A DNA stretch of 45,347 bases. Origin: an uncultured Lachnospiraceae bacterium. GTDB taxonomy: Bacteria > Bacillota > Clostridia > Lachnospirales > Lachnospiraceae. How positions within the stretch are numbered: the first letter of the stretch is position 1; each line of letters opens with the position of its first letter. Made by a program: the position numbers and the translations under genes. Positions 1,249 through 27,875 of the stretch are shown here, in pieces. The stretch spans positions 1 to 45,347 of the forward strand of contig CALWGP010000008.1 of the NCBI GenBank assembly GCA_944380095.1, in the 5' to 3' direction. The notes beneath the pieces are model-generated. The model searched no databases. It was not told where the DNA came from and was given only the letters and a program-made list of their open reading frames with translations.

Positions 1249-1282
1249 TAAGGCAAAAGAAGAAAAGCGGAGGCATGGTTTC

Positions 1283-2285: not shown

Positions 2286-3728
2286 ATGAACATATCAGAA
2301 AAAATTCGGACGAACTGGCTTCGGATTTTAATCTGGGGAGGCGTGGCGTTTTTTACGCTGTTATACGTCTCCCTGATTTTTAATCAGAATGTGTGGACGG
2401 ATGAGATTTTCACCCTGAAGCTGATTGAAAACGATTTTGCGGGGATTATAGGGGGGACGGCAGAGGACGTGCATCCGCCCCTGTATTATTTCGCGGCCAG
2501 GATCGTCAGGCTTTTGGCCGGCGACAGCCTGCAGGCGCAGAAGCTTCTGACGATCGTCCCCATGACGCTGACGCTGCTTTTGGGCGCCATAAAAGTGCGG
2601 CGGCTTTTTTCGGACGCGGTGGCCTGCGGTTTTATCTGGACGCTGGGATGCATTCCCTGCACCATGGAATATGCGGTCCAGATACGGATGTATTCCATGG
2701 CCCTGCTGGCGGTGACAGCCTGCGGGCTGTATGCCCTGGAAGCTTTTGAAACGCCGAAAAAGACACCGTGGATTTGGATGACGGTATCCGCCCTGGCCGC
2801 GGCATGGCTGCATTACTTTGCGCTGGGATCGGTCCTTGTGATCCAGGGATTTCTTTTCCTGGCCCTGCTGTGCAAAAAAAGGGAAAAGTTAAAGTACTGG
2901 CTGGCAGCGGCAGCGGCGGCCGCCGCCGGATATGCGCCCTGGATCGGCGTATTTTTGCGGCAGTCCGCAGGCGTGGCCGAAAGCTACTGGATTCCCGAAA
3001 TTACCTGGACGACGGTGGCGGATTATTTCCAGTGGGCCTTTGGAATCCATAAGTGGCAGTGGCCTGCCTGGGCGTTTACAGCCATGGCGGTCCTGCTGGG
3101 CATCGTTGTGGCTTTCAAGGCTGCCAAGGGAAGCCGGGAGGATATCGCGGCCCTGTTTGCCATGCTGGTGCCCGCCCTGACTGCCCTGACCGGAGTGGCC
3201 CTTTCTTTCCTGATCCGCCCGGTCTATCGAGATCAGTATGTTTTTCCGGCCATGGGGCTGTTTTGCCTGTTTTTCGCCGTGGGCCTTTCCCACCTGAAAA
3301 AGAAATTCCTGCTGTTTTTCGCCTGCCTGTTTTTGCTGTTTTTGGGAGCGGTACAGTATCTGGAAACCTGGAGACAGGAGTATAAGAGTACGCTGACGGA
3401 CCAGACCGTGGCGTTCTGGGAAGGGCATGTGGGGGAAAACGACCTGGTCGTGTATAATCTGGAAGTCTATGAGTTTTGCTATTCCTACTATTTCCCGGAG
3501 GAAAAGCTGTCCTATGTGCGGGACGTGGACTTAGACCAGGACTTTGAACAGATCTGGTTTCTGGATACGCCGGGGGAATGGGAATTTGTCCCGCCCCAGA
3601 TTCTGCCCTATGACCTGCAGATCGAATATATGGGACATTTCGGGATTGAGCATAACGAGTTTGACATTTACCGGGTGACAAAGGGGCCCAATCCGCAGCC
3701 CCTGCCTGAAGAGGGAGGACAGGGATGA
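2286..3728 (+). CDS. GT-C membrane glycosyltransferase, ArnT/GT39-GT83-like
   Basis: A polytopic membrane protein of 480 residues. The first membrane segment (about residues 13-32) is followed by an extracytoplasmic loop with the acidic D39-E40 pair (VWTDEIF) and H63-P64-P65 in DVHPPLYY. These are the hallmarks of PMT/ArnT-type enzymes that take sugar from a polyprenyl-phosphate donor outside the membrane. About ten further hydrophobic segments follow, then a soluble C-terminal domain from about residue 365. It would transfer a lipid-linked sugar to a glycan or protein; donor and acceptor are unknown. It lies four bases after pseB and overlaps the next gene by ATGA. A role in the same glycan as Pse is inferred from position only. 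Confidence 0.8.
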   Translation: MNISEKIRTNWLRILIWGGVAFFTLLYVSLIFNQNVWTDEIFTLKLIENDFAGIIGGTAEDVHPPLYYFAARIVRLLAGDSLQAQKLLTIVPMTLTLLLGAIKVRRLFSDAVACGFIWTLGCIPCTMEYAVQIRMYSMALLAVTACGLYALEAFETPKKTPWIWMTVSALAAAWLHYFALGSVLVIQGFLFLALLCKKREKLKYWLAAAAAAAAGYAPWIGVFLRQSAGVAESYWIPEITWTTVADYFQWAFGIHKWQWPAWAFTAMAVLLGIVVAFKAAKGSREDIAALFAMLVPALTALTGVALSFLIRPVYRDQYVFPAMGLFCLFFAVGLSHLKKKFLLFFACLFLLFLGAVQYLETWRQEYKSTLTDQTVAFWEGHVGENDLVVYNLEVYEFCYSYYFPEEKLSYVRDVDLDQDFEQIWFLDTPGEWEFVPPQILPYDLQIEYMGHFGIEHNEFDIYRVTKGPNPQPLPEEGGQG

Positions 3729-4762
3729 AACCAAAAAAACTGAGCATTATTGTGCCTGTATACAATATGGCGTCGGAAGGAAAGCTGGAGTACTGCCTCA
3801 ATTCCCTGGTCGGCCAGACTTTCCGGGACTATGAGATCATTGCGGTGGACGACGCTTCTAAGGACGAGTCCCCGCAGATATTAAAGCGCTACGAAGAAAA
3901 GTATCCGGACCGCTTCCGGGCGGTTTTGTGCGAAAAGAACCGCCGGCAGGGCGGGGCAAAAAACACCGGGCTGTCTTTGGCGCAGGGGGAATGGATCGGT
4001 TTTATCGACAGCGACGACTGGATTGCGCCCGATATGTATGAAAAGCTGCTCAAAAAAGCGGAGGAAACCGGGGCGGACATGGTGGGCTGCGACTATCACC
4101 TGACCTGGGAGCACAGCATGAAAATCGGGCAGGTGGTGGCCAACGGCAGCCCGGACCAGTGCGGCGTCCTGACGCCGGAAAAGTACCGCCGCCTGATTTT
4201 GGACAGCGGCAGCCTGGTGGTAAAAATCTACCGCAGGGAGATCTTTGAAGACAACCATATCCGTTTCCCGGAAGGGATTTTTTATGAGGACAACGCGGTC
4301 AGCGACGCCGTTTTGCTGCATGCAAAGCACTACGAATATATTCCGGAGCCCCTTTACTATTATTACCAGCACGACACTTCCACCGTGCATACGATTACGA
4401 AACAGCGCTGCGAGGACCGTATGGAAGCGGGACGGGGAATCGTCAGACAGGCGGAACGGTTCGGCTATCTGGAACAATACAGGCCGGAGATCTGCTTTGA
4501 ATTTACCGTACTCTTTTTTGTCAACACCCTCTTTTCCTACATGGTGGGAAAGGGGCATAAGTCCTTGCGGTTCGTAAGGCGCATGGGGAAAGAGATGCGA
4601 AAGACTTTCCCGGAATTTATGGAAAATCCCTACTATCAAAGCAGGATCCACGAAGAAGAAAAAAAACTCATCGCCCTCCAGCAAAAATCCACCCTGGCCT
4701 TCGTCCTTTATTATAAACTGCTTTGGACATGGCGGAATTTCCGGAAAAGGAAAAATCAATAG
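3725..4762 (+). CDS. Family 2 glycosyltransferase
   Basis: A cytosolic GT-A fold glycosyltransferase of 345 residues. The N-terminal SIIVPVYN strand starts the nucleotide-binding domain, VDDASKD follows near residue 40, and the metal-binding FIDSDDW has D95-S-D97-D98. The YYYYQHDTST stretch in the C-terminal half is common in capsule and wall-polymer GT2 enzymes. The C-terminal 90 residues are basic with one amphipathic stretch, suggesting membrane association. Translation is coupled to the preceding gene through an ATGA overlap. It is the last gene of the pseB transcript. Donor sugar cannot be read from sequence. Confidence 0.88.
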   Translation: MKPKKLSIIVPVYNMASEGKLEYCLNSLVGQTFRDYEIIAVDDASKDESPQILKRYEEKYPDRFRAVLCEKNRRQGGAKNTGLSLAQGEWIGFIDSDDWIAPDMYEKLLKKAEETGADMVGCDYHLTWEHSMKIGQVVANGSPDQCGVLTPEKYRRLILDSGSLVVKIYRREIFEDNHIRFPEGIFYEDNAVSDAVLLHAKHYEYIPEPLYYYYQHDTSTVHTITKQRCEDRMEAGRGIVRQAERFGYLEQYRPEICFEFTVLFFVNTLFSYMVGKGHKSLRFVRRMGKEMRKTFPEFMENPYYQSRIHEEEKKLIALQQKSTLAFVLYYKLLWTWRNFRKRKNQ

Positions 4763-5140: not shown

Positions 5141-5198
5141 AAAACAGCCGGGAAGGCAAAGACCCATGGAAAACGGGTCCCGCCTTTCCGGCTGTTTT
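5141..5198. terminator. Bidirectional rho-independent terminator between convergent genes
   Basis: AAAACAGCCGG at 5141 onward pairs with CCGGCTGTTTT ending at 5198. Internal GGAAGGC and GACCC pair with GCCTTTCC and GGGTC, giving a long GC-rich stem flanked by A and T runs on either side. It can serve the small gene ending at 5122 and the minus-strand pseG, whose stop codon touches its edge. Confidence 0.85.
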
Positions 5199-6252
5199 AA
5201 TTGCCGGTCCTGGTCAGGGCTTCCGCGATGCGGTCCGCCCCGGCGCCGTCTACGGCCATCCGCATCCGGGTGGATAGCTCTTTCCTGCGGGGATAATCCC
5301 GGGCAAGTTCCAGAAGCATCCGGACGGTGCAATCCAGGAAATCGGGGTTGTTGCGGATATCCCCGGCGTAAGGGATCAGGCCCGCCCGGTCAAAATCCTT
5401 TGTACAGGGCGCCTGGTTGTCCGTCATGCTGTAGCTGACGCTGGGGACTCCTATGGCGCACAGTTCATACAGGGTGGTGCCGCCGGCGGAAACGGCCAGG
5501 TCGCATTCCGCCATAAGGGAGGCCATGTCCGCCACGTTTTCATGAAGCCGGATGCGGCCGTCTTCCCGGGCCATCCGCACAAGTTCGCTGCGGTGGACGT
5601 GCATGGGGCCCGTAAGGACGTGCAGGCAGGCGGACTCAAATTCCGGCAGGACCAGCAGGCGGCGGGCCAGGCCTCCCGCGATCCCGAAGGGGTCCGTCCC
5701 CCCCGTGGAAAGGAACAGATCCTTCACCTGCTCCCAGACATGGTAAGGATGCAGGGAGAACTGACTGCGCAGGGGCGTATAGGCGCTCCCGGCCAGGACG
5801 GTGCGGGCGCTTTTGTAAAAAGAGACGTCCGCGTTTAAGTCGTAATTGACCACCAGGTCCACGGGATAGTCGAAGGCCTGCAGGTCGTCCAGATAGGCCA
5901 CCCGGCAGATCTGCGCCATCCGGGACAGGTAGGCAGCGGTGGCAAAGTAGGAATCCACCAGCAAAAAAGAGACGTTGTGGGAGGAAAGGATGCGCTGCAT
6001 CACAGGGATTTCTGCCTCCGGGTCGCGGTAGTCGGTCTGCAGATGAATGATCGGGAAAACCTTCCGGGCGGTTTCTTCCGGGGTCATCATCTTTTGCAGG
6101 AGGGAAATGGAGGAAGTATCCGAAACAATGAAAATGGGGAGGGCGTTTCTATGGCACAGGGCCCGTGCGACGGAAAGGCAGCGCATCAGGTGCCCGGTGG
6201 CAATGGTTTCGTTGCCGTCCGTGCGGATATAAACTAACGGATGAGATTCCAT
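5197..6252 (-). CDS. pseG: UDP-2,4-diacetamido-2,4,6-trideoxy-beta-L-altropyranose hydrolase, PseG
   Basis: PseG removes UDP from UDP-6-deoxy-AltdiNAc to give the free sugar condensed by PseI. The protein has 351 residues and the GT-B-like fold. Near the N-terminus, IRTDGNETIATGHLMRCL carries H21, the equivalent of the catalytic His17 of Campylobacter PseG. The C-terminal half has the UDP-binding SAGGTTLYELCAIGVP. Length is close to other Gram-positive PseG proteins, somewhat longer than Campylobacter PseG. It is the last gene of the minus-strand operon pseF-pseI-pseG, and its start overlaps the end of pseI by 19 bases, with a GGGG-type ribosome site inside pseI. It ends at the terminator at 5141-5198. 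Confidence 0.93.
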   Translation of the reverse strand: MESHPLVYIRTDGNETIATGHLMRCLSVARALCHRNALPIFIVSDTSSISLLQKMMTPEETARKVFPIIHLQTDYRDPEAEIPVMQRILSSHNVSFLLVDSYFATAAYLSRMAQICRVAYLDDLQAFDYPVDLVVNYDLNADVSFYKSARTVLAGSAYTPLRSQFSLHPYHVWEQVKDLFLSTGGTDPFGIAGGLARRLLVLPEFESACLHVLTGPMHVHRSELVRMAREDGRIRLHENVADMASLMAECDLAVSAGGTTLYELCAIGVPSVSYSMTDNQAPCTKDFDRAGLIPYAGDIRNNPDFLDCTVRMLLELARDYPRRKELSTRMRMAVDGAGADRIAEALTRTGN

Positions 6253-7286
6253 GATAAAGGGGTCCCCTTTCTGATGGGACAGGAGGCCTTCCTGCCCAGA
6301 ATTTCCTCATAGTACATGGTGTGAAGGCCGCAGCCGGGGCGGATGGAGCGCACATTTTCGGACGTAAAGGATTCCCCTTCCCCCATGTCTTTTACCACAA
6401 AGAGGGAGCGGGAGCCAAAACGTTCGGATTCCTGGACGTCCGTGAGCCGGTACACCGGGGAACCCAGCGCTTTTTCCAGGATCCGGATATCGTCCACCAT
6501 TTTTTTGAACTCTTCGGGCTCCATGGAAAAAGCCCCGTCCGGGCCGCCGTCGCTTCTGCGCAGGGTCAGGTGCTTTTCCACCATGCGGGCGCCCAGGGCT
6601 ACCGCGCCGACGGCTACGGCGGATCCCATGGTGTGGTCGGAAAGCCCGGTCAGGCAGCCGAACGTCCTCTCCAGGGTGGGGATTACGTTAAGGTTGACAT
6701 CTTCATAGGGAGTAGGGTAGGCGGAGACGCATTTGAGCAGGATCACGTCTTCATTGCCTTCCTGGCGGCAGACCGCCAGGGCGCGCTCGATATCCTCCAG
6801 CCGTGCGATGCCGGTGGCAAAAATCATGGGTTTGTGCAGCCGTGCGATTTTGCGGATCAGGGGGATATCGTTGATCTCGTAGGAGGCGATTTTATAGGCG
6901 GGCATGTCCAGCCCTTCCATGAAATCCACCGCCGTGAAATCAAAGGGGGAGGAAAAACAGATCAGTCCCTGCTTTTTTGCCTCTTCCATCAGCTTGGGGT
7001 GCCATTCCCAGGGCGTATAGGCCTCCTCATAAAGTTTGTGCAGGGTGGTGCCGTCCCAGAGGGTGCCGCCGGTGATCTGGAAACAGTCGTCGTCGCTGTC
7101 AAAGGTGATGGTATCGGCGGTATAGGTCTGCAGCTTGACGGCGTCCGCGCCGGCTTCCTTGGCGGCATGGAGGATGCGCACCGCACGGTCATAGTCCTGC
7201 AGATGGTTGGCGGACATTTCCGCCACAATGAAAACGGGGGAGTCGGCAGCGATGCGCCGGCCCGCCAGATAAACTTCCTGGTTCAT
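6234..7286 (-). CDS. pseI: Pseudaminic acid synthase, PseI
   Basis: PseI condenses 6-deoxy-AltdiNAc with phosphoenolpyruvate to make pseudaminic acid. The 350-residue protein has an N-terminal NeuB-type TIM barrel and a C-terminal SAF (antifreeze-like) domain from about residue 290. The N-terminal VAEMSANHLQDYDRA followed by VKLQTYTADTITFD, the GTLWDGTTLHKLYEEAYTPW stretch and SSPFDFTAVDF are characteristic of PseI and differ from sialic acid (NeuB) and legionaminic acid (LegI) synthases. This makes the product assignment firmer than for most nonulosonate genes. It overlaps pseF by ATGA (7283-7286), and its ribosome site AAAGGA lies within the end of pseF. Confidence 0.94.
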   Translation of the reverse strand: MNQEVYLAGRRIAADSPVFIVAEMSANHLQDYDRAVRILHAAKEAGADAVKLQTYTADTITFDSDDDCFQITGGTLWDGTTLHKLYEEAYTPWEWHPKLMEEAKKQGLICFSSPFDFTAVDFMEGLDMPAYKIASYEINDIPLIRKIARLHKPMIFATGIARLEDIERALAVCRQEGNEDVILLKCVSAYPTPYEDVNLNVIPTLERTFGCLTGLSDHTMGSAVAVGAVALGARMVEKHLTLRRSDGGPDGAFSMEPEEFKKMVDDIRILEKALGSPVYRLTDVQESERFGSRSLFVVKDMGEGESFTSENVRSIRPGCGLHTMYYEEILGRKASCPIRKGTPLSWNLIR

Positions 7287-7978
7287 TTTAAGTTCCTTTC
7301 CAGCATTTTTTCGTATTTCACTTCCGCGATGGCCCAGTCTTCCAGGGTATCAATGTCCTGGACTTCCAGTTCGGGCAGGATCATGGACACCATGTTTTTC
7401 GTGTCCGTGGTGCCCTCCCGGAAGAAGGCCTCGGTGCGGCAGGCATAAAACTGCCCGCAGTCATGATAGATTTTTTCCAGGTCCTGGCTGCGGGAAGCCG
7501 CATACTGGGGCCATTTATAGCCCAGATGGCCCTGTCCGTCCAGACACAGCCCGCGCTGCACCGGATAGGAAAAAGGCACTACGGGCATAACGGACTCCGC
7601 GGATTTTAACATTTCCATGGCGTCCCGTAACTTCTGCGCCGTTACAAAGGGGGCGGTGGGATAGATGCAGCAAAACGCGTCAAATTCCCTGCCCTGTGCG
7701 CGGTAGGCAAGAAGCACTTCCCGGATCACATCGTCGGTGGAAGCGTAGTCCCCGGCGGTTTGGGCGCTGCGCAAAAAGGGGACGGATGCCCCGGCGTTTT
7801 CTGCGATGCGGGCGATTTCCGCATCGTCGGTGGAAACCATGACCTCTTCAAAAATGCCGGCGTTTAAAGCGGCTTCCACGGAATAAAGCAGGATGGGTTT
7901 CCCCAGAAACGGCCGTACGTTTTTGCGGGGGATCCGCTTGCTTCCCCCCCTGGCCGTAATAATTGCAACAGATGACAT
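7283..7978 (-). CDS. pseF: Pseudaminic acid cytidylyltransferase, PseF
   Basis: PseF activates pseudaminic acid with CTP to give CMP-Pse, the donor for transferases. The 231-residue protein begins with the CMP-NulO synthetase signature ARGGSKRIPRKN at residues 9-20. LQDIDTLEDW-like residues near the C-terminus (VQDIDTLEDWAIAE) fit the PseF/NeuA family. The start at 7978 has a perfect AGGAGG at 7987-7992; a longer in-frame start at 8161 would run through the intergenic region and the divergent gene. It is the first gene of the minus-strand operon and is divergent from the CotH-like gene. Confidence 0.93.
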   Translation of the reverse strand: MSSVAIITARGGSKRIPRKNVRPFLGKPILLYSVEAALNAGIFEEVMVSTDDAEIARIAENAGASVPFLRSAQTAGDYASTDDVIREVLLAYRAQGREFDAFCCIYPTAPFVTAQKLRDAMEMLKSAESVMPVVPFSYPVQRGLCLDGQGHLGYKWPQYAASRSQDLEKIYHDCGQFYACRTEAFFREGTTDTKNMVSMILPELEVQDIDTLEDWAIAEVKYEKMLERNLK

Positions 7979-8005
7979 AAGACATTCCTCCTGGATTTCA
8001 TTGTA

Positions 8006-8034
8006 AGTATACCATTGGATGCAGGAAATAGAAA
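8006..8034 (-). promoter_or_regulatory. Promoter of the pseF-pseI-pseG operon
   Basis: Read on the minus strand, TGG-TATACT (extended -10, hexamer at 8006-8011) is preceded by 17 bases and a poor -35, TTTCTA (8029-8034). Transcription would start near 7999, leaving a leader of about 20 bases with AGGAGG ahead of pseF. Confidence 0.5.
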
Positions 8035-8049
8035 AGCCTTTTTGGGACT

Positions 8050-8077
8050 GTGAAAAGAAAGAAATTTGGGGTATACT
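8050..8077 (+). promoter_or_regulatory. Promoter of the CotH-like gene
   Basis: GTGAAA at 8050-8055 and TATACT at 8072-8077 are separated by 16 bases. Transcription would start near 8084, so the ATG codons at 8019 and 8085 would be outside or at the very end of the message. This supports the start at 8112, which has GGGAG at 8096-8100. The two divergent -10 boxes are only about 60 bases apart. Confidence 0.45.
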
Positions 8078-8111
8078 GGGAATAATGAAAAAAACGGGAG
8101 AAATTCTTCGA

Positions 8112-9725
8112 ATGGAAGAAAAAAGAGAGATCCGGAAAATCCTGGCGCTGATGGGGGCCATGTGCGTTCTAGCGGCAGCGGTTTTGGGCTACGAGCATAT
8201 AGAGGCCAATGCCGACCGGTATGCCGAAGTCACAGTTTATGAAAATGAAGAGGGAGAACGATACCTGTTCCTTCCCTCCTGGGCGGACGCCGGGCGGGAG
8301 AAGGCGCGGCTGGGGCAGGCGGGAGAAGACGTGGCGGTCCTGCAGTCCGAAAACCTGGCCAGCGTGGAAATCCGGACGGCCAGCGGTTCTTTGGACTTGC
8401 TTTTGGAAGATAAGGAACATACGGAAAAAGGGCGCATCCGGATTACCGGCGCGGACGGGACCCTTTTGTATGAAGGGAATCTGGAAAAGATCCGGGGCCG
8501 GGGAAACAGCACCTGGTCTTTGGAGAAGAAGCCCTTTGAGATCAAACTTTCGGAGAAAGCGGACCTGTTTGGCATGGGCGAAGCCAAAACCTGGATCCTT
8601 TTGGCAAACGGCTTTGACGAAACGGGCATCCGCAGCAGCATCGGCCTTTGGCTGGCCGATGAAGCAGGGCTTGCTTTCACGCCCCGGCAGGAGCCAGTGG
8701 ATCTTTACTGCAACGGGGAGTACCAGGGCAGCTATCTGCTGTGCGAAAAGGTACAGGCCCGGGAAAACCGGGTGGAGATCGGGAACGGTTATCTTATCGA
8801 GCGGGAGCTCAAAGAGCGCTGGGAAGTAGCGGTTTATACGGAAGGAAAAGCCGGATTTGCCACAGGGCGGGGGGAATATTACCTGATCGATTTCCCCGAA
8901 AATCCCACTCCGGAGCAGATTGAGCAAATAAGCTCTCTGGTCCAGGAGGCAGAGGACGCGGTCTTTGCGGCGGACGGTATCCATCCGGAAACGGGCAGGA
9001 GCTGGGACGAGTATCTGGACCGGGACTCCTTCGTACGCAAGTACCTGCTGGAAGAAGTGACCAAAAACTATGACGGCGGCGTCACCAGCGCATTCTACTA
9101 TGTGCCGGAAGGGGAGGCAAAGCTGTATGCCGGGCCGGCCTGGGACTACGATGCGATTTTTGGAAACGTCCTCTTAGACGAGATGAACAGCGACCCCAAG
9201 GGGATCACGGAGCTGTCGGACCATCTTTTTGGGACGGATCTGTACAGCGCCCTGATGGATTTGGAGCCGTTTCGGGAAGAGGTATTCCATTGCTTTGAAA
9301 CCGTGTACCTGTCTCTTTTGGAAGAACTGCTGGACGGCGGAATCGACCGGATGGCCGCACGGACGGAGGCTTCGATGCAGATGAACCACATCCGCTGGGA
9401 AGAGATGGATAACCGCCATCAGTATTATGAAAGCTATGAAGATAACCTGCGTTATCTGAAATACTATATTCGGGAACGGATGGATTTTCTGACGGAAGTC
9501 TGGGTGGGGGGAGAAGTCTACCGGACGGTGACCATGGAGGTGGAAGGCGTTGAATGGAGGAAGTTTTACGTCAGGGACGGCAGCCTTCTGGGCGACCTGC
9601 CGGTTCCGTTTTTAAACGACAGCCTTTTTATGGGCTGGTATCGGACGGATGGGAAAAAATACGATCCCTACCGGCCGGTTTATGAAGATATGACCCTGGA
9701 AGCGGTCTGGCAGGAAGTTGAATGA
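8112..9725 (+). CDS. CotH-family protein kinase, membrane-anchored and extracytoplasmic
   Basis: CotH proteins are atypical kinases first known from Bacillus spore coats. This one has 537 residues from the chosen start. Residues 10-30 form one hydrophobic segment, either a signal anchor or an uncleaved signal peptide, so the domain is probably outside the cell. The CotH signature R128-GRGNSTW is followed by KKPFEIKL, LFGM and WILLAN; EKV follows near residue 220. W344-DYD is the likely metal-binding motif. The last 40 residues (PVPFLNDSLFMGWY ... YEDMTLEAVW) match a Listeria-Bacteroides-type beta-grasp repeat, often seen in cell-wall proteins. It is divergent from pseF and stands alone with its own promoter. 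The substrate is unknown; phosphorylation of a surface protein or glycan of this locus is only a guess. Confidence 0.85.
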   Translation: MEEKREIRKILALMGAMCVLAAAVLGYEHIEANADRYAEVTVYENEEGERYLFLPSWADAGREKARLGQAGEDVAVLQSENLASVEIRTASGSLDLLLEDKEHTEKGRIRITGADGTLLYEGNLEKIRGRGNSTWSLEKKPFEIKLSEKADLFGMGEAKTWILLANGFDETGIRSSIGLWLADEAGLAFTPRQEPVDLYCNGEYQGSYLLCEKVQARENRVEIGNGYLIERELKERWEVAVYTEGKAGFATGRGEYYLIDFPENPTPEQIEQISSLVQEAEDAVFAADGIHPETGRSWDEYLDRDSFVRKYLLEEVTKNYDGGVTSAFYYVPEGEAKLYAGPAWDYDAIFGNVLLDEMNSDPKGITELSDHLFGTDLYSALMDLEPFREEVFHCFETVYLSLLEELLDGGIDRMAARTEASMQMNHIRWEEMDNRHQYYESYEDNLRYLKYYIRERMDFLTEVWVGGEVYRTVTMEVEGVEWRKFYVRDGSLLGDLPVPFLNDSLFMGWYRTDGKKYDPYRPVYEDMTLEAVWQEVE

Positions 9726-9742
9726 GGGGAAGTTTGCGCACC

Positions 9743-9772
9743 TTGCGCTGTCCGTACAGAATGTGGTAAAAT
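9743..9772 (+). promoter_or_regulatory. Promoter of the 9809-21823 gene run
   Basis: TTGCGC at 9743-9748 and TAAAAT at 9767-9772 are 18 bases apart, with TG at 9764-9765 as an extended -10. Transcription would start near 9779, and AAAGGAAGG at 9794-9802 precedes the ATG at 9809. No terminator is visible between the CotH-like gene and this promoter. Confidence 0.6.
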
Positions 9773-9808
9773 ACAGCGTGCCCTCTGGGCGCGAAAGGAA
9801 GGATACCG

Positions 9809-10900
9809 ATGAAGAAAAAGACTCCGAAAAAAGATCGGATTTATGTCTGCCATACCTATTACCATGTATATGTGACCTGTTTAAAAGAGCTGACCCTTCC
9901 CAAAGAAATGCGCGGCCGCGGGACGCTGGTGCTGAGCACTTTGTCCAACGACTTCGGGAACCTGAAGGAGAGGGCGGAAAAGAGCGGGATCTTCGAAGAA
10001 GTCCTTTTGTTTGAGGAAAAGAGGGAGGATCGTTTTCCCCAGCTGGCCCGTTACCATAAGGACCGGGAAAACCTGCTTGTCAACCTGGCTGCCAGGATGG
10101 TCTTTACCAAGCTTTACGGCAAGCTGCAGCAGCCCTATGTGCCCGTGGATTTCCGGGATTACCGGGATATCTACGTGTTCTGCGACTCGGATCCCATCGG
10201 CTATTACCTGAACTGGAAGAAGATTCCCTATCATGCCCTGGAGGACGGGCTGGACTGTATCTGCTATTACGACACGGCGCGTTACGATAACAGGGGACAT
10301 TTTAAGCTGAAGGCGTTTCTGGCCTCCCTGAACCTGATTTTTATTCAGAACGGATACAGCAAATACTGTATGGATATGGAAGTGAACAATACTTCCATTT
10401 TAAAATATCCCTGTCCCAAATACATCGAGCAGCCCCGCGAGGTGCTGGTGCGCCGGCTGACCCGGGAGGACAAGGAGCGGATCCTGGCCCTCTTTTTGCA
10501 GGATCTGGACCGGCTCAAAGAGCAGCTGGCAACCGGGGAGCACCATGAGAAAAAGGTGCTCATCCTGTCGGAGCCTCTGTGCAGCCTGCCGGTGAGAAAG
10601 AAGCTGTTTACCGACCTGGTGGAGACTTACGGCAAAGGCGCCCAGGTGCTCATCAAGCCCCACCCCAGGGACGTGCTGGATTACCGGGCGCTTTTCCCCG
10701 GGTGTATCGTGCTGGACAAGATGTTCCCCATGGAAATCTTGAATTTCCTGGAAGGGGTTTCTTTTGACCGGGTGGTTTCCGTTTATACGGTGACGGATTC
10801 CATCCATTTTGCAAAGGAAAAGATCTTCCTGGGGGACGATTTCATGGATCGGTATGAGAAACCGGAGGAGCATCGCTTCAACGAGCAGATCGAAGACTGA
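9809..10900 (+). CDS. GT52-like sialyltransferase-type glycosyltransferase; candidate pseudaminic acid transferase
   Basis: A soluble 363-residue protein with the two motifs that define bacterial sialyltransferases of families GT38, GT52 and GT80. The acidic D/E-D/E-G motif is E145-D146-G147 in HALEDGLD, and the HP motif is H285-P286 in IKPHPRD. A Ser/Thr pair in VSVYTVTDS near residue 330 corresponds to the third conserved site. In these families the motifs bind the CMP-nonulosonate donor. Because genes for CMP-Pse synthesis lie just upstream, the most economical role is transfer of Pse from CMP-Pse to a glycan. It could equally be a transferase using another donor, since family members without sialic acid activity exist. 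It starts a plus-strand run of coupled genes and is followed at once by an ABC flippase. Confidence 0.72.
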   Translation: MKKKTPKKDRIYVCHTYYHVYVTCLKELTLPKEMRGRGTLVLSTLSNDFGNLKERAEKSGIFEEVLLFEEKREDRFPQLARYHKDRENLLVNLAARMVFTKLYGKLQQPYVPVDFRDYRDIYVFCDSDPIGYYLNWKKIPYHALEDGLDCICYYDTARYDNRGHFKLKAFLASLNLIFIQNGYSKYCMDMEVNNTSILKYPCPKYIEQPREVLVRRLTREDKERILALFLQDLDRLKEQLATGEHHEKKVLILSEPLCSLPVRKKLFTDLVETYGKGAQVLIKPHPRDVLDYRALFPGCIVLDKMFPMEILNFLEGVSFDRVVSVYTVTDSIHFAKEKIFLGDDFMDRYEKPEEHRFNEQIED

Positions 10901-10922: not shown

Positions 10923-12674
10923 ATGAAAAGAATCTGGAAAAAAATGATGGTGCTGCTGAACCATCGCCAAAAACTGAAAATGGTGCAGATCCTGATCATG
11001 ATGGTGATCGGGGCGGCGCTGGAAACCTGCAGCATCGCGCTGGTGATCCCCGCCATCCAGGTGATCATTGATCCTTCCTGCGTGGAAGGGGACGGGATCG
11101 TGGCGAGGGCGTACCGGCTGACGGGCCTTGAAAATCCCACCAGCTTTATGATCCTGATTTTGGGAATGATCATCTTGGGGTTCGTCCTGAAAAACATCTT
11201 CCTGTATTTTCAGAACGTGGTGCAGCTGCGGTTTGTCTATACCAACCAGTTCGAGACTTCCCAGCGGATGATGATCAATTTTATGAAGCGGCCTTATGAA
11301 TACTACCTCAATGCGGATACTTCCGTGATCCAGCGGATGATCACTTCGGATGTGAACAATATGTACGGGCTGATCCTGGCCTGCCTGCAGCTGGTCAGCG
11401 AAGTGATTATCTTCGTGTTTCTGACCGTGACCCTGACTTCCCAGGCGCCCCAGATGATCCTCACCATCGCGGCCCTTTTGGTGGTGGTGCTTTTGATTAT
11501 CAAATGGGTGTTAAAGCCCATTATGCGCCGGGCCGGCGAGGAAAACCAGGATTATTACAGCGGGCTTTACAAGTGGATTGAAGAGTCCGTCATGGGCATC
11601 AAGGAAATCAAAATTGCCAACAAGGAAAACTACTTTATCACGGAATACGGAAAGTGCGGGAAAGGGTATGTGAGCGCCGTCCAGCGCTACAATATTTTCA
11701 ACGCGACCCCCAGGCTTTTGATTGAGACGGTGTGTATGGCCGGGCTGATTTTATACCTGATCCTGATGATTTTATCCGGGGCGGACGTTACGGCCATGGT
11801 GCCCCAGATCGGCGCTTTTTCCGTGGCGGCCATGCGTCTTTTGCCGTCGGCCAACCGGATTAACAACTACCTGACTTCCATTTCCTATTTCGAACCCTTT
11901 TTCATGGGGGTTTCGGACAACCTGCAGGACGAGATCCACGACAAAAACGTGGTATACGACGAGAGCGCCTATCGGGTAAAAAAGGATGTGGAAAAGCTGC
12001 CGGTGAAAAAGGAAATCGTCCTGGAGGATATTGTATACCATTACCCCAATTCCGACGTGCGGATCTTTGACCACGCCCGCATGGAAGTCCCGGTGGGCAA
12101 ATCCGTGGGGATTGTGGGGACATCCGGCGCGGGAAAGACCACCATTGTGGATATCATGCTGGGGCTTTTGCAGATTTCCGAAGGGTCCATCCTGGCAGAC
12201 GGGGTGGAAGTGCGGGATCATTATGAATCTTGGCTGAAAAATATCGGCTATATCCCCCAGAATATTTTCATGGTGGATTCCACCATCCGCAAAAACGTGG
12301 CCTTCGGGTGCGCGGACGAGGAAATCGACGATGAAAAAGTATGGGAAGCGCTGAAAAAAGCCAGCCTGGACGAATTCGTGCGCAGCCTTCCCCAGGGGCT
12401 GGATACGGGCATCGGGGAGCGGGGCATCCGCATTTCCGGCGGACAGCGTCAGAGGATCGGCATTGCCAGGGCCCTTTATGAGGATCCGGAAGTGCTGGTG
12501 CTGGACGAAGCCACCAGCGCTTTGGACAACGATACCGAAGCGGCCATCATGGAGTCCATCAACAGCCTGCACGGGCATAAGACGCTGGTGATCATTGCCC
12601 ACAGGCTGCAGACCATTGAAAAGTGCGACATCGTTTACCGGGTGGAGAACGGACAGATCGTCCGGGAAAGATAG
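10923..12674 (+). CDS. ABC transporter, fused permease and ATPase, PglK/MsbA-like flippase
   Basis: A 583-residue half-transporter. An N-terminal permease domain of about six membrane segments (residues 15-310) is fused to a C-terminal ATPase. Walker A is GTSGAGKTT with K405, the signature is ISGGQRQR at 504-511, and Walker B is VLVLDEA with D528-E529. The permease N-terminus and domain layout resemble PglK and WlaB, which flip undecaprenyl-diphosphate oligosaccharides, and the drug/lipid exporter MsbA. In this locus a lipid-linked oligosaccharide is the likely cargo, particularly since no MATE-type Wzx flippase is seen in the window. The start at 10923 has AGAGGA close upstream; the longer frame overlaps the previous gene. 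Confidence 0.85.
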   Translation: MKRIWKKMMVLLNHRQKLKMVQILIMMVIGAALETCSIALVIPAIQVIIDPSCVEGDGIVARAYRLTGLENPTSFMILILGMIILGFVLKNIFLYFQNVVQLRFVYTNQFETSQRMMINFMKRPYEYYLNADTSVIQRMITSDVNNMYGLILACLQLVSEVIIFVFLTVTLTSQAPQMILTIAALLVVVLLIIKWVLKPIMRRAGEENQDYYSGLYKWIEESVMGIKEIKIANKENYFITEYGKCGKGYVSAVQRYNIFNATPRLLIETVCMAGLILYLILMILSGADVTAMVPQIGAFSVAAMRLLPSANRINNYLTSISYFEPFFMGVSDNLQDEIHDKNVVYDESAYRVKKDVEKLPVKKEIVLEDIVYHYPNSDVRIFDHARMEVPVGKSVGIVGTSGAGKTTIVDIMLGLLQISEGSILADGVEVRDHYESWLKNIGYIPQNIFMVDSTIRKNVAFGCADEEIDDEKVWEALKKASLDEFVRSLPQGLDTGIGERGIRISGGQRQRIGIARALYEDPEVLVLDEATSALDNDTEAAIMESINSLHGHKTLVIIAHRLQTIEKCDIVYRVENGQIVRER

Positions 12675-12727
12675 GGAAACGCCTTTGGGATGAAAGGCTG
12701 CACGGACGAAGGAAGGAGGCGCAGGAC

Positions 12728-13834
12728 ATGGCCGGTGGAACGCAAAAAAGACAGGCGAATCTGGAAGCGCTGCGCATTGCAGCCATGTTCATGGTAGTCG
12801 TTTTGCATTATCTGTCCGGCAGCGGGGCTTTGCCGGAATCGGGCCGGGGGACGGACGGCATCGCCGTGCTTTCCGTGTGCCTGGAATCGGTGTGCATTGT
12901 GGCGGTGAACGCCTATGTGCTCTTAAGCGGCTATTTTTTGAGTACGGCAGACTTTCGCTGGAGCAGGCTTTTGCGGCTGCTTTTGGAGGTCTGGTTTTAT
13001 ACCCTGCTGATTCCGCCCCTTCTGGCGGCCCTTGGGCTGATCGGGCCGTCGGAGCTAAAGGATCCCTATCATCTGTGGAACAGCCTGTTTCCCATCCAGT
13101 CGGGCCATTACTGGTTCGTCACCGCCTATGCGGTGCTGCTTTTGTTTTCCCCCCTGGCGGGCGCAGCCTTAGAAAAGCTGGGGCAAAAGCGGATGAAAGG
13201 GGTGATTTTGGGCCTTCTGGTCTTTTTCTCTTTCGGAAAATCCGTCAGCGTCCTGCAGTTTTCCACGGACCGCTACGGCTATGATTTCGGATGGTTTTTG
13301 TGCCTGTACCTCATCGGCGGCTACTGGCGCCGGTACGGCATCCCTTTTTTGGACAAAAAGGGGAGGGGGATTGCGGTTTATCTGGGTTCGGCCGCAGGCA
13401 TTGCGGGAATGGAACTGGTGCTGGCCCGGCTGTCGGCCGCCCTTCCCCAGCTGACCTACTATGCTTCGGTCCCTTTTCATTATAATTTTGTCCTCTGCCT
13501 TACCGGGGCCATGGGGCTGTTTTCCGCTTTCCTTCACTGGAATATCCGGGAAGGCAGGATGGCCGGCCTGATCCGGGCGGTGAGCCCGGCTACCTTCGGG
13601 GTTTACCTGATTCACCAGCAGGCCGACGTGCAGGGAAGGTGGCTTATGTGGGCGGACGGGCTGGCTGCAAAAGCCGGCCTGGGACAGGTCTGGCAGGACG
13701 GGCTGGCAGCCGGGACCACAGCGCATTTTGCCCTCTGCCTGCTGGCGCAGACGCTTCTGGTCTTCTGGTTTTGCATCGGCGCAGACCGGATCAGGGGCCT
13801 GCTGTTTTGGATCATAAGGAGGAAACGGCCATGA
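12728..13834 (+). CDS. Membrane O-acyltransferase, acyltransferase-3 family
   Basis: A 368-residue polytopic protein of the AT3 family (OafA, WecH, OatA type), which moves acetyl or other short acyl groups across the membrane onto extracytoplasmic sugars. The first segment holds the conserved basic and histidine residues R16 and H27 (NLEALRIAAMFMVVVLHYLSG is the family pattern of an Arg and a His flanking the first membrane helix). About ten membrane segments follow. The GHYWFVTAY stretch near residue 125 and FGVYLIHQQ near the C-terminus are typical. AAGGAGG at 12713-12719 fixes the start. It overlaps the next gene by ATGA. It probably decorates the finished glycan. Confidence 0.85.
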   Translation: MAGGTQKRQANLEALRIAAMFMVVVLHYLSGSGALPESGRGTDGIAVLSVCLESVCIVAVNAYVLLSGYFLSTADFRWSRLLRLLLEVWFYTLLIPPLLAALGLIGPSELKDPYHLWNSLFPIQSGHYWFVTAYAVLLLFSPLAGAALEKLGQKRMKGVILGLLVFFSFGKSVSVLQFSTDRYGYDFGWFLCLYLIGGYWRRYGIPFLDKKGRGIAVYLGSAAGIAGMELVLARLSAALPQLTYYASVPFHYNFVLCLTGAMGLFSAFLHWNIREGRMAGLIRAVSPATFGVYLIHQQADVQGRWLMWADGLAAKAGLGQVWQDGLAAGTTAHFALCLLAQTLLVFWFCIGADRIRGLLFWIIRRKRP

Positions 13835-15552
13835 CGGACCGTATGAAACAAGCCTTGACGAACTTTATCTTCCCGCTGCTGCTGTTTTTGTATCCCTTCC
13901 TGAAAATCGGGCAGGGGATCGACCTGACGGATTCCAGCTACGGACTGGTCAACTACCTGTTTTTCCCCAACGCGGGACAGGAATGGACGGTGGCTACCTG
14001 GCTTGCCAATGTGCTGGGGGCGCTTTTCATCCGGCTGCCCTTTGGGGATACGCTGATCGGGATCCGGTTTTACTGCAGCCTGCTGGTCTGCTTTATGGCG
14101 CTTTTGTCCTATTTTTTCCTGAAAGGGAAAATGCCGCCCTGGATCGCTTTCCTGGGGGAGGCGGCCGCCGTCAGTCTCTGCTGGATCCCGGTGACGAGCC
14201 TGTATAATTACCTGACGTTCGCGCTTTTTTTAAGCGGCAGCATCTGCCTGTACCGGGGACTGGTCTGGCAGAGAAGGAGGACCATGGCCCTTGCGGGCGC
14301 GCTGCTTGGGGCCAGCACCCTGACCCGGCTGCCCAATATTTTGGAGTGCGGCCTGATCGTGGCGGTGTTTTATTACGGAATCGTGAAAAAAAAGGCGGCG
14401 AAGGAAATCTGGAAGGACGCAGGGGCCTGCGCGGCAGGGTTTTTTGCCGCTTTCGGCGCGGGTTTTTTGTGCATCTGCCTGCAGTTTGGACCTGCGGCCT
14501 ACGGGGAAATGCTGACGGGGCTTTCCGGCTATCAGAGCACGGACGCCACCTATTCCCCCCTGTCCATGCTCACATCGGTGGCAGGGGCGTATGTGACTTC
14601 GTTTAAATGGGTGCTTTTGCTGGCGGTGGCGGCAGCCATGGGAAGCGTGCTGTTTTTGCTTTTGCCGGGCCGGTTTGAAAAGACCAAGGCAGCCCTTTAC
14701 CTGTGTATGCTCCCCGTGCTTTTGCGGCTGTTATGGGGAAGGGGGATGTTCAATTTCCAGTATGCTTTTTACTGGAGCGTGTTCCAGTGGTGCATGGTGC
14801 TTTTGTACGCGGCCGTGGGCCTGTGCGTTTTTTGCCTGGCAAATCCCAGGGTTTTCAGAAGGGATAAGCTGCTGGCGCTGATCGTCCTTTTGACCATCCT
14901 CATTACCCCCATCGGGAGCAACAATGAAACCTATCCCAATATGAACAATCTTTTCCTGGTGGCGCCGGTGACGTTTTGGCTGGGATACCGGCTGTTTCTG
15001 GCCCTAGGTTCCAGGAAAGGGACCTTTGCCTGGCGGGCCATGCTGGTTTTTGCGGCGGCGGTTTTCCTGGTCCAGAGCGCGGGCTTTGGCGTCCGGGCGG
15101 TCTTTCGGGACAGCATCGAAGGACAGAGACGGGACAGCGAGGTGACCGGATGTCCCAAACTTTCCGGGGTGAAGACCAATGCCCAAAACGCTGCCGCCCT
15201 GCAGGATGTGGTGGACTACGCCGCCGAAAACGGATGGGAAGAGGATGCGGCCAGGAGCAGGAAAATGATCACTTTCGGAGACGTGCCGGGGTTTTGCTGG
15301 CTGTTTGACATGCCCTCGGCCCTGTCCCATGACTGGCCGGATATGAACACTTATCCGGCGGAAAAAATGCGGGAAGACCTTGGGGCCATCCGCTCCATGA
15401 GCAGCGAGCCTCCGGCGGTGATCGTAAACGAAGGGAATGTGGATTTGGAAGAGCCACAGGAGGCAAAGAAGTGGGAAGCCCTGCAGGCTTTTTTGCAGGA
15501 AAACGGATATGAATGCCGGATGGACAACGGTACATACCGGATTTATGAATAA
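13831..15552 (+). CDS. Polytopic membrane protein, probable GT-C glycosyltransferase
   Basis: A 573-residue protein with a first membrane segment at about residues 10-27 and an acidic first loop (GIDLTDSSYG, D31 and D34). About ten more hydrophobic segments follow, then a soluble extracytoplasmic C-terminal domain from about residue 425. This layout is that of GT-C enzymes using polyprenyl-phosphate sugars, but I do not recognise a named family. The C-terminal domain includes WLFDMPSALSHDWPD, a pattern seen in other uncharacterised Clostridia homologues. AAGGAGG at 13816-13822 supports the start. Translation is coupled to the acyltransferase by ATGA. A flippase or scaffold role cannot be excluded. 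Confidence 0.68.
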   Translation: MTDRMKQALTNFIFPLLLFLYPFLKIGQGIDLTDSSYGLVNYLFFPNAGQEWTVATWLANVLGALFIRLPFGDTLIGIRFYCSLLVCFMALLSYFFLKGKMPPWIAFLGEAAAVSLCWIPVTSLYNYLTFALFLSGSICLYRGLVWQRRRTMALAGALLGASTLTRLPNILECGLIVAVFYYGIVKKKAAKEIWKDAGACAAGFFAAFGAGFLCICLQFGPAAYGEMLTGLSGYQSTDATYSPLSMLTSVAGAYVTSFKWVLLLAVAAAMGSVLFLLLPGRFEKTKAALYLCMLPVLLRLLWGRGMFNFQYAFYWSVFQWCMVLLYAAVGLCVFCLANPRVFRRDKLLALIVLLTILITPIGSNNETYPNMNNLFLVAPVTFWLGYRLFLALGSRKGTFAWRAMLVFAAAVFLVQSAGFGVRAVFRDSIEGQRRDSEVTGCPKLSGVKTNAQNAAALQDVVDYAAENGWEEDAARSRKMITFGDVPGFCWLFDMPSALSHDWPDMNTYPAEKMREDLGAIRSMSSEPPAVIVNEGNVDLEEPQEAKKWEALQAFLQENGYECRMDNGTYRIYE

Positions 15553-15587: not shown

Positions 15588-16754
15588 ATGAGCGAAAACA
15601 GATTACCGTTTACCGGACATGAAAAAATACGGTTCAACGTCCCGCCTTTTACCGGAAAAGAATACGACTATATCCGGCAGGCGGTGGAAAACAAGAAGAT
15701 CTGCGGGGACGGGGAGTTTACCAGGAGGGCCGGCCGGTGGTTCGAGGAGCGCACCGGGACGGCAAAGTGCCTGATGACCACTTCCTGCACCCATGCCACG
15801 GAACTGGCCGCCCTTTTGTGCAATATCCGCCCGGGGGACGAGGTGATCATGCCTTCTTTCACCTTTGTGTCCACCGCGGACGCCTTCGTGCTGCGGGGGG
15901 CGGTGCCGGTCTTTGTGGATATCCGCCCGGATACCATGAATCTTGACGAAACGCTGATCGAAGGGGCGGTTACGGAAAAGACGAAAGCCATTGTCCCCGT
16001 CCACTATGCAGGGGTGTCCTGCGAGATGGATACCATCCTGGACATCGCCCGCCGCCATCATCTGTTCGTGGTGGAGGACGCGGCCCAGGGCGTGATGGCC
16101 TCTTATAAAGGGAAAGCCCTGGGGACCATGGGGGATTTCGGCTGCTACAGCTTCCACGAGACGAAAAACTACAGCATGGGGGAAGGCGGCGCCCTGCTCA
16201 TCCGGGATCCGGAGTATATCGAGAAGGCGGAGATTTTCCGGGAAAAGGGAACGGACCGGAGCAAATATTTCCGGGGACAGGTGGACAAATACCGCTGGCA
16301 GGATTACGGTTCCAGCTATCTGCCCAGTGAGCTCAACGTGGCCTATCTGTACGCCCAGCTGGAGATGGCGGAGCAGATCAACGAATACCGGCTGGCCCGC
16401 TGGAACGAATATTACGAACAGCTCCTTCCCCTGAAAGAGGCCGGAAAGCTGATCCTTCCCACCGTGCCGGAGGGCTGCGTCCACAATGCCCATATGTTCT
16501 ATATCAAGACGGCGGACGAAGGGGAGTGCACGGCCCTGCGGGAATTTTTAAAGGACAGGGACGTTCTGGCCGTGACCCATTACGTGCCCCTGCATTCCGC
16601 GCCCGCGGGACGCAAATACGGGCGTTTTTACGGGGAAGACGTTTATACCACAAAGGAGAGCGAACGGCTGCTGCGCCTGCCCATGTACTACGGGCTGACG
16701 GCGGACGATGTTTCCTTTGTGACAGAGAAGGTAAGGGAGTTCTATGGAGCTTAA
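15588..16754 (+). CDS. wecE: dTDP-4-amino-4,6-dideoxygalactose transaminase, WecE/RffA
   Basis: A PLP aminotransferase of the DegT/DnrJ/EryC1 family, 388 residues. It converts dTDP-4-dehydro-6-deoxy-glucose and glutamate to dTDP-4-amino-4,6-dideoxy-D-galactose (dTDP-Fuc4N). The sequence follows E. coli WecE very closely over its whole length: IRFNVPPFTGKEYDY, KICGDGEFTRR, PSFTFVSTADAFVLRG, VFVDIRPDTMN, SFHETKNYSMGEGG with PLP lysine K193, and the EDVYTTKESERLLRLPMYY end. This makes the substrate call stronger than is usual for the family. The dTDP-glucose synthesis genes (rmlA, rmlB) are not in the window and must be elsewhere. The GNAT-GT2 fusion two genes downstream could acetylate its product. 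Confidence 0.9.
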   Translation: MSENRLPFTGHEKIRFNVPPFTGKEYDYIRQAVENKKICGDGEFTRRAGRWFEERTGTAKCLMTTSCTHATELAALLCNIRPGDEVIMPSFTFVSTADAFVLRGAVPVFVDIRPDTMNLDETLIEGAVTEKTKAIVPVHYAGVSCEMDTILDIARRHHLFVVEDAAQGVMASYKGKALGTMGDFGCYSFHETKNYSMGEGGALLIRDPEYIEKAEIFREKGTDRSKYFRGQVDKYRWQDYGSSYLPSELNVAYLYAQLEMAEQINEYRLARWNEYYEQLLPLKEAGKLILPTVPEGCVHNAHMFYIKTADEGECTALREFLKDRDVLAVTHYVPLHSAPAGRKYGRFYGEDVYTTKESERLLRLPMYYGLTADDVSFVTEKVREFYGA

Positions 16755-18513
16755 AAACCGATGGCAGGACCGGCTGACGGCATCGCTGCTTACGCTGCTT
16801 TTCTTCGGCTTTTTGGCCCTGCGTTTCGATTTCTGTTATGACCTTAATGACGACGTGCTGATCAAGGATATCCTTTCCGGGGTTTATTCCGGCGCGCCGG
16901 ACGGGCATACCATGCAGCTGCTCTATCCGCTGGGAGCGGTTTTAAGCTTTCTGTACCGGCTGCTGCCCGTCCCCGTCTTCGGTCTGTTTTTGATCGCCTG
17001 CCAGGGCGTGTCCGTCTGGGTGATCCTGCGCCGGACGGCGGGGATGTGCCGGGGCCTTGTGGGACGGATTGCTTTGCCTGCGGCGGAGAGCCTGTTCCTT
17101 CTGGCGGCTTTCGGCGGCCACATGCTTTTTTTGCAGTATACGGTAACGTCCGGGCTGCTGGCCGGGGCTGCCGTTTTCTGGCTTTTGACCGGCAGGCAGG
17201 AGGAGGAACCTTTTTTGGCGGGAAGGTTCATCGGGCAAAATGTGCCGGCCCTGGTTTTGTACTGGCTGGCCTTTTGCCTCCGGCCGGAGATGGGCCTGCT
17301 TTTGCTGCCTTTGGCGGGAACGGCGGGACTGTGCCTTTGGGCCCAAAGGCCCCCTTTTTTTAGCCGGGAAAACCTGGCGGCATACGCAGGGCTGTTTTTG
17401 ATCCTGGCCGCAGGCATGGGCCTGTTTTGGGGCATGGACGGACTGGCGTACCGGTCGCAGGACTGGAAGGAATTCAGGCGGTTTTTTAACGCCCGTACCG
17501 AGCTGTACGATTACCAGCTGGATTTGATCAACAATTACGGGGAAAATGAGGAAATCTACCGGGCGTTAGACATTGCGCCCCAGCAGCAGAAACTGCTGGA
17601 AACCTACAACTTCGGCGCGGATGATTCCATAGATGCGGACTGGATGGAAGGGCTGCAGGATGCGGCGGCCGGCCGGGAAGGGGGCGGGATTTTTAGACAG
17701 ACCGTCGGGGAAGCCCTGTGGAGCCTGCGGCACCGTTTTTTGTCTTCCGGGGATTTCCCGCTGAACCTTGCAGTGCTGACGGCGTTTGTTTGTCTGCTGG
17801 GTTTGGGGGCCCGCAGGGGCAGCCGGGGGCTTTTGTGGCAGGCGCCTTTGTGCCTGGCAGCGGGAGGCGTTTCGTGGATGTTCCTGCTTTTGCGCAACCG
17901 CCCGGAAACAAGGGTGGTGGATCCCCTCTACCTGGCCCAGTTTCTGGTCTTTTGGGGCCTGCTTCTGAAATGTTTAGCGGATCGGGCCAAGGGGCGGGAA
18001 GGCAGGGAAAGCCTTTGGGACGGCTGTCAGAAAGCCATTCCCGGCGCTGTAGCGGTCTTTTTGGCCGTGCTTGCCGCCGTGCGGCTGCCTTTTTCGCTGA
18101 CGGAAATGGAAGGGGAATTCTGGCGGCGGGAGGAGACCAACCGGATCCAGCAGGAAGTGATGGCGTACTGCAGCGCCCGTCCGGAAACGCTGTTTTTGGA
18201 GGACGTATATTCCACGGTGGCTTACAGCGAAACGATTTGGGTAGACAGGGACAAACCCTTCAATTACGATCTGCTGGGGGGCTGGCTGGTGAAAAGCCCG
18301 CTGACCCAAAAGAAGCTGTCCGCTTTCGGATTTTCCGGCATGGAAGAGGCGGTGCGCAGCACGGAAGGGGTTTTGCTTTTGAGCGATGTAGAATCCGGGA
18401 TGGAGTGGCTTGAGGATTACTTCGCGTTTCGTCAGGAAGCGGTTTCGCTGGTTTTGGAAGATACCATCGGGGACCGGGTGGAGGTCTGGCGGGTAACGGC
18501 GGAAGGAGAATGA
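16744..18513 (+). CDS. Polytopic membrane protein, probable GT-C glycosyltransferase
   Basis: A 589-residue protein with about ten hydrophobic segments. After the first segment (residues 12-27) an acidic loop contains YDLNDDVL (N35, D36, D37), the kind of motif that binds the donor phosphate in GT-C enzymes. A soluble stretch at about residues 235-325 and a soluble C-terminal domain after about residue 440 are probably extracytoplasmic. No named family is recognised. It overlaps the end of wecE by 11 bases, with GGGAG just upstream, and is followed after three bases by the GNAT-GT2 fusion. Its place between the Fuc4N aminotransferase and that fusion suggests it transfers the lipid-carried Fuc4NAc, which is an inference from position. 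Confidence 0.68.
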   Translation: MELKNRWQDRLTASLLTLLFFGFLALRFDFCYDLNDDVLIKDILSGVYSGAPDGHTMQLLYPLGAVLSFLYRLLPVPVFGLFLIACQGVSVWVILRRTAGMCRGLVGRIALPAAESLFLLAAFGGHMLFLQYTVTSGLLAGAAVFWLLTGRQEEEPFLAGRFIGQNVPALVLYWLAFCLRPEMGLLLLPLAGTAGLCLWAQRPPFFSRENLAAYAGLFLILAAGMGLFWGMDGLAYRSQDWKEFRRFFNARTELYDYQLDLINNYGENEEIYRALDIAPQQQKLLETYNFGADDSIDADWMEGLQDAAAGREGGGIFRQTVGEALWSLRHRFLSSGDFPLNLAVLTAFVCLLGLGARRGSRGLLWQAPLCLAAGGVSWMFLLLRNRPETRVVDPLYLAQFLVFWGLLLKCLADRAKGREGRESLWDGCQKAIPGAVAVFLAVLAAVRLPFSLTEMEGEFWRREETNRIQQEVMAYCSARPETLFLEDVYSTVAYSETIWVDRDKPFNYDLLGGWLVKSPLTQKKLSAFGFSGMEEAVRSTEGVLLLSDVESGMEWLEDYFAFRQEAVSLVLEDTIGDRVEVWRVTAEGE

Positions 18514-18516
18514 GTG

Positions 18517-21860: not shown

Positions 21861-21922
21861 GCTAAGGATATATCGGAAAAACTGGAAAATTCTGTCCCGG
21901 GAGCGGGTCAGAAAGGATGGAA

Positions 21923-26716: not shown

Positions 26717-26721
26717 GGAAA

Positions 26722-27852: not shown

Positions 27853-27875
27853 CCGCGCCCACGGAGGAAAGACCG

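Follow-up and report, generated by a model that had tools for sequence, protein, structure and literature searches.

A predicted GT52/GT38-type CMP-pseudaminate glycosyltransferase in a flippase-linked glycan locus of a Lachnospiraceae gut bacterium

Sequence, structural, and genomic evidence leads us to predict, with a probability of about 80%, that the 363-residue protein encoded at positions 9809 to 10900 (plus strand) of the 45,347-nucleotide stretch of DNA analyzed here (the window) is an inverting CMP-pseudaminate glycosyltransferase of the GT52/GT38 type, acting on a glycan tied to a PglK-like flippase locus. Family models, the fold, the CMP-sugar repertoire of the genome, and co-occurrence across genera all support the original prediction, made from the DNA alone, of a GT52-type enzyme using CMP-pseudaminic acid (CMP-Pse). 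The host, a gut bacterium, belongs to the Eisenbergiella group (Lachnospiraceae). The gene is genuine, with an ATG start and an AAGGA-type ribosome site upstream. Close relatives were present in 20 of 98 related genomes, the nearest (91%) belonging to Candidatus Eisenbergiella merdigallinarum, and 80 named loci of relatives were collected, mostly from Eisenbergiella and other Lachnospiraceae.

Only two Pfam models matched the protein at an E value of ≤1: PF07922 (GT52), at 34.8 bits (cut-off, 26.1), over profile positions 59 to 240 (182 of 272), and PF07388 (polysialyltransferase), at 23.3 bits (cut-off, 23.3). The GT52 model was matched by 76/76 relatives at an E value of ≤0.01 and the polysialyltransferase model by 71/76. 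These profile matches place the protein in the GT52/GT38 superfamily; GT52 fits it better, though only along part of the domain. No NCBIfam model matched it, nor did the Pfam models for Maf (PF01973), GT80, KpsC/KpsS-type capsule synthases, or TagB, and a sequence search of the PDB, whether with the single protein or with a profile, matched no chain. Profile alignment with another GT52/polysialyltransferase-family protein from Bacillota (L119) placed EDG on EDG and KPHPRD on KPHPND; alignment with a third such protein (L120), likewise from Bacillota, placed the same segments on EEG and KPHPRE. The latter protein matches both PF07388 and PF07922 and lies in a legionaminic/sialic-type CMP-nonulosonate locus (LegB, LegC, NeuC, and NeuB), which supports the view that donor use in the superfamily tracks the CMP-sugar available in each genome.

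E145-D146-G147 (codons at 10241 to 10249, plus strand) and H285-P286 (10661 to 10666, plus strand) are present exactly where the original prediction placed them; they are the sole [DE][DE]G and the sole HP of the protein and lie 140 residues apart. Taken bare, such motifs are unremarkable and constitute weak evidence, gaining force only in combination with conservation and fold. Among 162 real open reading frames of at least 250 aa, 34 (21%) contain both motifs and 11 (7%) have them 100 to 190 residues apart, and shuffling of the protein itself yielded both motifs in 12% of cases and suitable spacing in 2.4%. Moreover, SpsB of Bacillus subtilis carries DEG and HP and adjoins CMP-Leg genes yet is dispensable for Leg transfer (PMC7439481). 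Given the 7% of ordinary long reading frames that match by spacing and the SpsB precedent, motif counting was dropped as evidence; the original argument from motifs and neighborhood was right about the motif positions and insufficient alone for calling a transferase. Both motifs are unchanged across 18 relatives with 51 to 91% identity and invariant in an alignment of 76 relatives, as are K283, R287, and D288, which flank HP.

Two distant relatives (L109, 8147 to 9271, and L112, 8573 to 9673; 23 to 25% identity) do not have EDG, the former having EHA at that position, and both retain HPRD; judging from these residues, their catalytic base may be different. In Lachnospiraceae genomes, weak relatives embedded in longer proteins (L110 and L111) have KdsB-type CMP-Kdo synthetase-like genes as neighbors.

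An AlphaFold2 model built from 76 sequences (mean pLDDT, 88; pTM, 0.88) predicted a GT-B fold of the sialyltransferase type. The top two Foldseek matches were a Photobacterium sialyltransferase and the Mannheimia polysialyltransferase (MhPST), and the best 23 PDB entries in VIA-align were all bacterial sialyltransferases (GT80 or GT38; Z scores of 16.9 to 12.7). The first unrelated GT-B enzyme followed at a Z score of 12.4; the lowest-scoring sialyltransferases were tied with it, and the top ones were 4 units clear. Superposition on 2ex1 (PmST1-type GT-B) gave a Z score of 16.5, with an rmsd of 4.2 over 285 residues, and superposition on MhPST gave a Z score of 14.1 at 13% identity. The structural matches listed included no GT42 structure, an absence that is uninformative either way, and no GT52 crystal structure, and the comparison with GT52 therefore rests on sequence. 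In the model, EDG occupies the loop between strand 141-144 and helix 150-156, directly following the strand, and PHP lies directly after strand 279-283; these are the expected loops. The original prediction had named a structure prediction that fails to bring the two motifs to a shared nucleotide site as a result that would count against it. In partial answer to this, the predicted fold agrees, and the loops carrying the motifs come after the strands where they would be expected.

Functional data from two polysialyltransferases indicate what these loops may do. The base of MhPST, E153, is located in a strand-to-helix loop, H291 of the same enzyme binds the alpha-phosphate (PMC5517516), and mutants of NmB-polyST in either motif lose most or all activity (PMC2169525). 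By analogy, we infer that D146 would be the catalytic base, deprotonating the acceptor hydroxyl, and that H285 would be the ligand that holds the phosphate of CMP, the reaction being an inverting single displacement.

The highest structural scores (Z of up to 16.9) were obtained with PmST1 and other GT80 enzymes, which also carry both motifs, but their motif spacing is 171 in PmST1 (D140 to H311) versus 140 here, and the protein has no GT80 Pfam match; EDG-HP spacing in GT80 has been described as longer by about 50 residues (PMC2169525). The resemblance to the GT38 polysialyltransferases raises the possibility that the protein polymerizes pseudaminic acid, adding Pse onto Pse as polysialyltransferases do with sialic acid. 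Consistent with such an activity are the polysialyltransferase model, matched at its cut-off here and by the 71 relatives noted above, the structural score to MhPST, and the motif spacing, which is close to the 139 of MhPST by residue numbers (PMC5517516) and also similar to the approximately 126 of NmB-polyST. Set against this, identity to MhPST is low, the protein scores higher with the GT52 model than with the polysialyltransferase model, and the many other glycosyltransferases and the PglK-like flippase of the locus suit a mixed oligosaccharide over a homopolymer. We therefore consider a polymerase quite improbable and favor an enzyme that transfers Pse to a mixed glycan.

The genes for CMP-Pse lie beside the candidate, as originally predicted, and their products all score above NCBIfam cut-offs: the inverting UDP-GlcNAc 4,6-dehydratase PseB (1181 to 2281, plus strand; TIGR03589, 530.9 bits; cut-off, 407.75), the UDP-sugar hydrolase of the pathway, PseG (5197 to 6252, minus strand; TIGR03590, 163 bits; cut-off, 153.55), pseudaminate synthase PseI (6234 to 7286, minus strand; TIGR03586, 483.6 bits; cut-off, 340.25), and CMP-pseudaminate synthetase PseF (7283 to 7978, minus strand; TIGR03584, 280.4 bits; cut-off, 205.7). 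The longer reading frame of pseF starts at 8161, and its true start, with a GAGGA site, is at 7978. PseI scores below the cut-off of the NeuB model. PseC, also above its cut-off, is encoded on another contig. For PseH, the possible counterpart, judged by a near-threshold match (TIGR03585, 91.3 bits; cut-off, 93.1), is the gene at 18514 to 20007 (plus strand), whose product fuses a PseH-like N-acetyltransferase domain to an ArnC/PgfS-like (polyprenyl-phosphate) GT2 domain at residues 181 to 487. Matches to this fusion, some of them partial, were found in the flanks of 38/80 relatives. The pseC locus (L105; contig C27 of genome G000, 5224 to 10368) adjoins genes for an isopropylmalate synthase, a PLP decarboxylase, and a PylC-like ATP-grasp protein; a PylC-like protein is also encoded in the window (28534 to 29508).

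We surveyed the whole genome, an assembly that is 97.6% complete, for CMP-sugar genes. The lack of neuA and neuB that the original prediction saw in the window extends genome-wide: the sole CTP_transf_3 protein is PseF and the sole clear NeuB-type synthase is PseI, a second NeuB-family match (contig C13) being weak, at 39 bits. CMP-Pse is thus the only CMP-nonulosonate that the genome appears able to make, and we infer that it is the donor. CMP-Pse differs from sialic-acid-type CMP-sugars in configuration at C5, C7, and C8. The main argument against accepting this donor is that the best-studied donor test of a GT52 enzyme points the other way, since gonococcal Lst accepts CMP-Neu5Ac and five of its analogues, CMP-Leg among them, and rejects CMP-Pse5Ac7Ac, which is of differing stereochemistry (PMC4668040). 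The candidate resembles the Neisseria enzyme and its relatives in an above-cut-off family model, in the D/E-D/E-G and HP pair, in its CMP-sugar context, and, as predicted from the model, in a GT-B fold, and it departs from the Lst donor range in residing in a genome that apparently makes only CMP-Pse.

The remainder of the locus is rich in glycan genes. Next in the same operon, and starting 22 bases past the stop codon of the candidate, is a PglK/MsbA-like ABC flippase (10923 to 12674, plus strand; best NCBIfam model PglK, 343 bits, below the cut-off of 1000). Next come an Acyltransferase_3 membrane protein (12623 to 13834, plus strand; PF01757, 99.8 bits), a conserved 637-residue protein that is hydrophobic by inspection, of a large membrane type, and has no Pfam match above cut-off (13639 to 15552, plus strand), and a WecE-type aminotransferase (dTDP-Fuc4N; 15588 to 16754, plus strand; TIGR02379, 612.8 bits; cut-off, 434.85); a GT2 glycosyltransferase is encoded upstream (3725 to 4762, plus strand; PF00535, 123.2 bits). 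When flanks within 10 kb of the gene were inspected for the 80 named relatives, these five neighbors were found in 67, 65, 64, 68, and 47 loci, respectively. Two large proteins with no Pfam match are encoded at 16744 to 18513 and 21917 to 24418, the former conserved in 60/80 relatives, and neighboring proteins of this kind, which have no assigned function, could include another transferase. A row of genes at 24420 to 28520, broken by a glyoxalase-like gene (26240 to 26716), encodes a PglF-like dehydratase, a LegC/PglE-like aminotransferase, and a sugar-phosphate primer transferase, likely a priming sugar pathway. A CotH-kinase-domain gene (8019 to 9725), also found in 11/80 relatives, separates the transferase operon from the divergently oriented pseF operon.

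To what extent the candidate travels with Pse synthesis was assessed in the same flanks and then across genera. PseI was encoded within 10 kb of the gene in 69/80 relatives and PseF in 68/80; in all of the remaining 12, PseF was found over its cut-off elsewhere in the genome (12/12). Searching the whole phylum with the GT52 model of Pfam proved insensitive, returning only four genomes, and an alignment-based profile within Lachnospiraceae was used instead (A3 profile, ≥400 bits; 299 genera, one genome each). The GT52-type gene was detected in 38 genera, PseF over its cut-off in 60, and both in 33; three further GT52 genera carry PseF fragments at contig ends. Counting these fragments, PseF occurs in 36/38 GT52 genera versus 27/261 others (Fisher P of ∼1e-26), and without them in 33/38 (P of ∼3e-22), values that overstate independence, as genera share ancestry. 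The two GT52 genera with no detectable PseF are represented by genomes that are 67% and 81% complete. Separate contigs carry the two genes in 12 of the 33 genera having both, so more than position links them. One genome of the same genus as the window (G002) has PseI but no GT52-type gene, its 4.3-kb contig breaking off at that point, which accounts for the missing gene.

These counts bear on whether the protein might instead, as a member of GT52, transfer a different sugar (for instance a UDP-, dTDP-, or other CMP-sugar), its association with Pse reflecting only a shared large glycan locus. The locus does make other sugars (WecE, a UDP-sugar dehydrogenase, and the PglF/PglE-like pair), and WecE (68/80) and the flippase (67/80) are linked to the gene about as well as PseI is (69/80). 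GT52 also includes enzymes described as glucosyltransferases, and the known GT52 enzyme Lst rejects CMP-Pse. A merely local association, however, would not readily account for the retention of PseF in every genome where it is not adjacent and in 36 of 38 genera, a link that outlasts separation from the locus. In addition, CMP-sugar enzymes are the class to which the fold and motifs belong, and the genome encodes no CMP-sugar synthetase of the PseF family other than PseF itself. Transfer of another sugar is therefore unlikely in our judgment, and CMP-Pse remains the preferred donor.

The genus survey also addressed whether CMP-Pse is consumed by a different transferase (of the Maf, GT118, GtfS, or other type) and not by the candidate. 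Maf (PMC3426422), GtfS of Tannerella (PMC6388019), and KpsS1 are known or strongly supported Pse transferases, and the candidate matches none of their family models. The genome of the window has no Maf-type (PF01973) protein, and the window proteins scanned with Pfam included no capsule-synthase or TagB-type match and no other sialyltransferase-type gene. Across genera, a strong Maf was found in 19/27 PseF genera that do not have the GT52-type gene versus 8/36 that do (P = 2.4e-4), a pattern that fits two alternative outlets for CMP-Pse, flagellin via Maf and another glycan via the GT52-type enzyme. Eight Pse-positive genera (G025, G388, G401, G460, G503, G536, G547, and G564) lack both the GT52-type gene and a strong Maf. 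There is therefore probably at least one additional type of transferase, and a third kind may be hidden in those genera. For the bacterium studied here, we consider use of its Pse by a different transferase in place of the candidate to be very unlikely, and we retain the candidate as the probable Pse transferase.

A search of the open-licence literature found no GT52 pseudaminyltransferase. Maf enzymes share the proposed donor but belong to PF01973, act on flagellin, and are absent from this genome and rarer in Pse-positive genera with the GT52-type gene. Tannerella forsythia GtfS (Pse) and TFUB4_00887 (Leg) are nonulosonate transferases supported by knockouts. Both glycan-directed, they resemble the candidate in carrying D/E-D/E-G and HP but have been described as having a TagB domain plus a DXD motif (PMC7439481 and PMC6388019), for which the candidate has no corresponding Pfam match. 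KpsS1 (GT118) has in common with the candidate the donor CMP-Pse and a surface polysaccharide product, both of them proposed for the candidate. As cited in PMC12887879, it is a KpsC/KpsS homologue and a retaining enzyme, with CMP-Pse and product both alpha. The candidate, in contrast, matches no KpsC/KpsS family and is predicted to be inverting; with CMP-alpha-Pse as the donor, a beta-linked Pse product would be expected, the opposite of that of KpsS1.

Together, these features suggest the following pathway. PseB, -C, -H, -G, -I, and -F would make CMP-pseudaminic acid in the cytoplasm, where the predicted GT-B enzyme would move Pse from CMP-Pse to a glycan under assembly; the likely acceptor is a lipid-linked oligosaccharide or polysaccharide repeat. 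The PglK-like ABC flippase of the same operon would then export the Pse-bearing product.

We further propose, as a reasonably likely though less certain extension, that a clade of the superfamily switched donor from sialic-acid-type CMP-sugars to CMP-Pse, giving rise to an inverting glycan pseudaminyltransferase that would be mechanistically distinct from GT118 and would replace Maf as a main nonflagellar user of Pse across Lachnospiraceae. Characterized GT52 members are not known to transfer Pse, and a GT52-type Pse enzyme would be a notable variant of the family and, relative to Lst, a real change of donor stereochemistry. Few Pse transferases are known, and the sole glycan-directed family characterized in vitro that we found cited is GT118. 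If the prediction is correct, a common gut family would have a second, inverting route beside GT118, and the destination of Pse in Gram-positive bacteria that have no Maf would be explained. Such an enzyme would also serve in the synthesis of Pse glycosides and would provide a natural experiment on how the sialyltransferase scaffold reads sugar stereochemistry.
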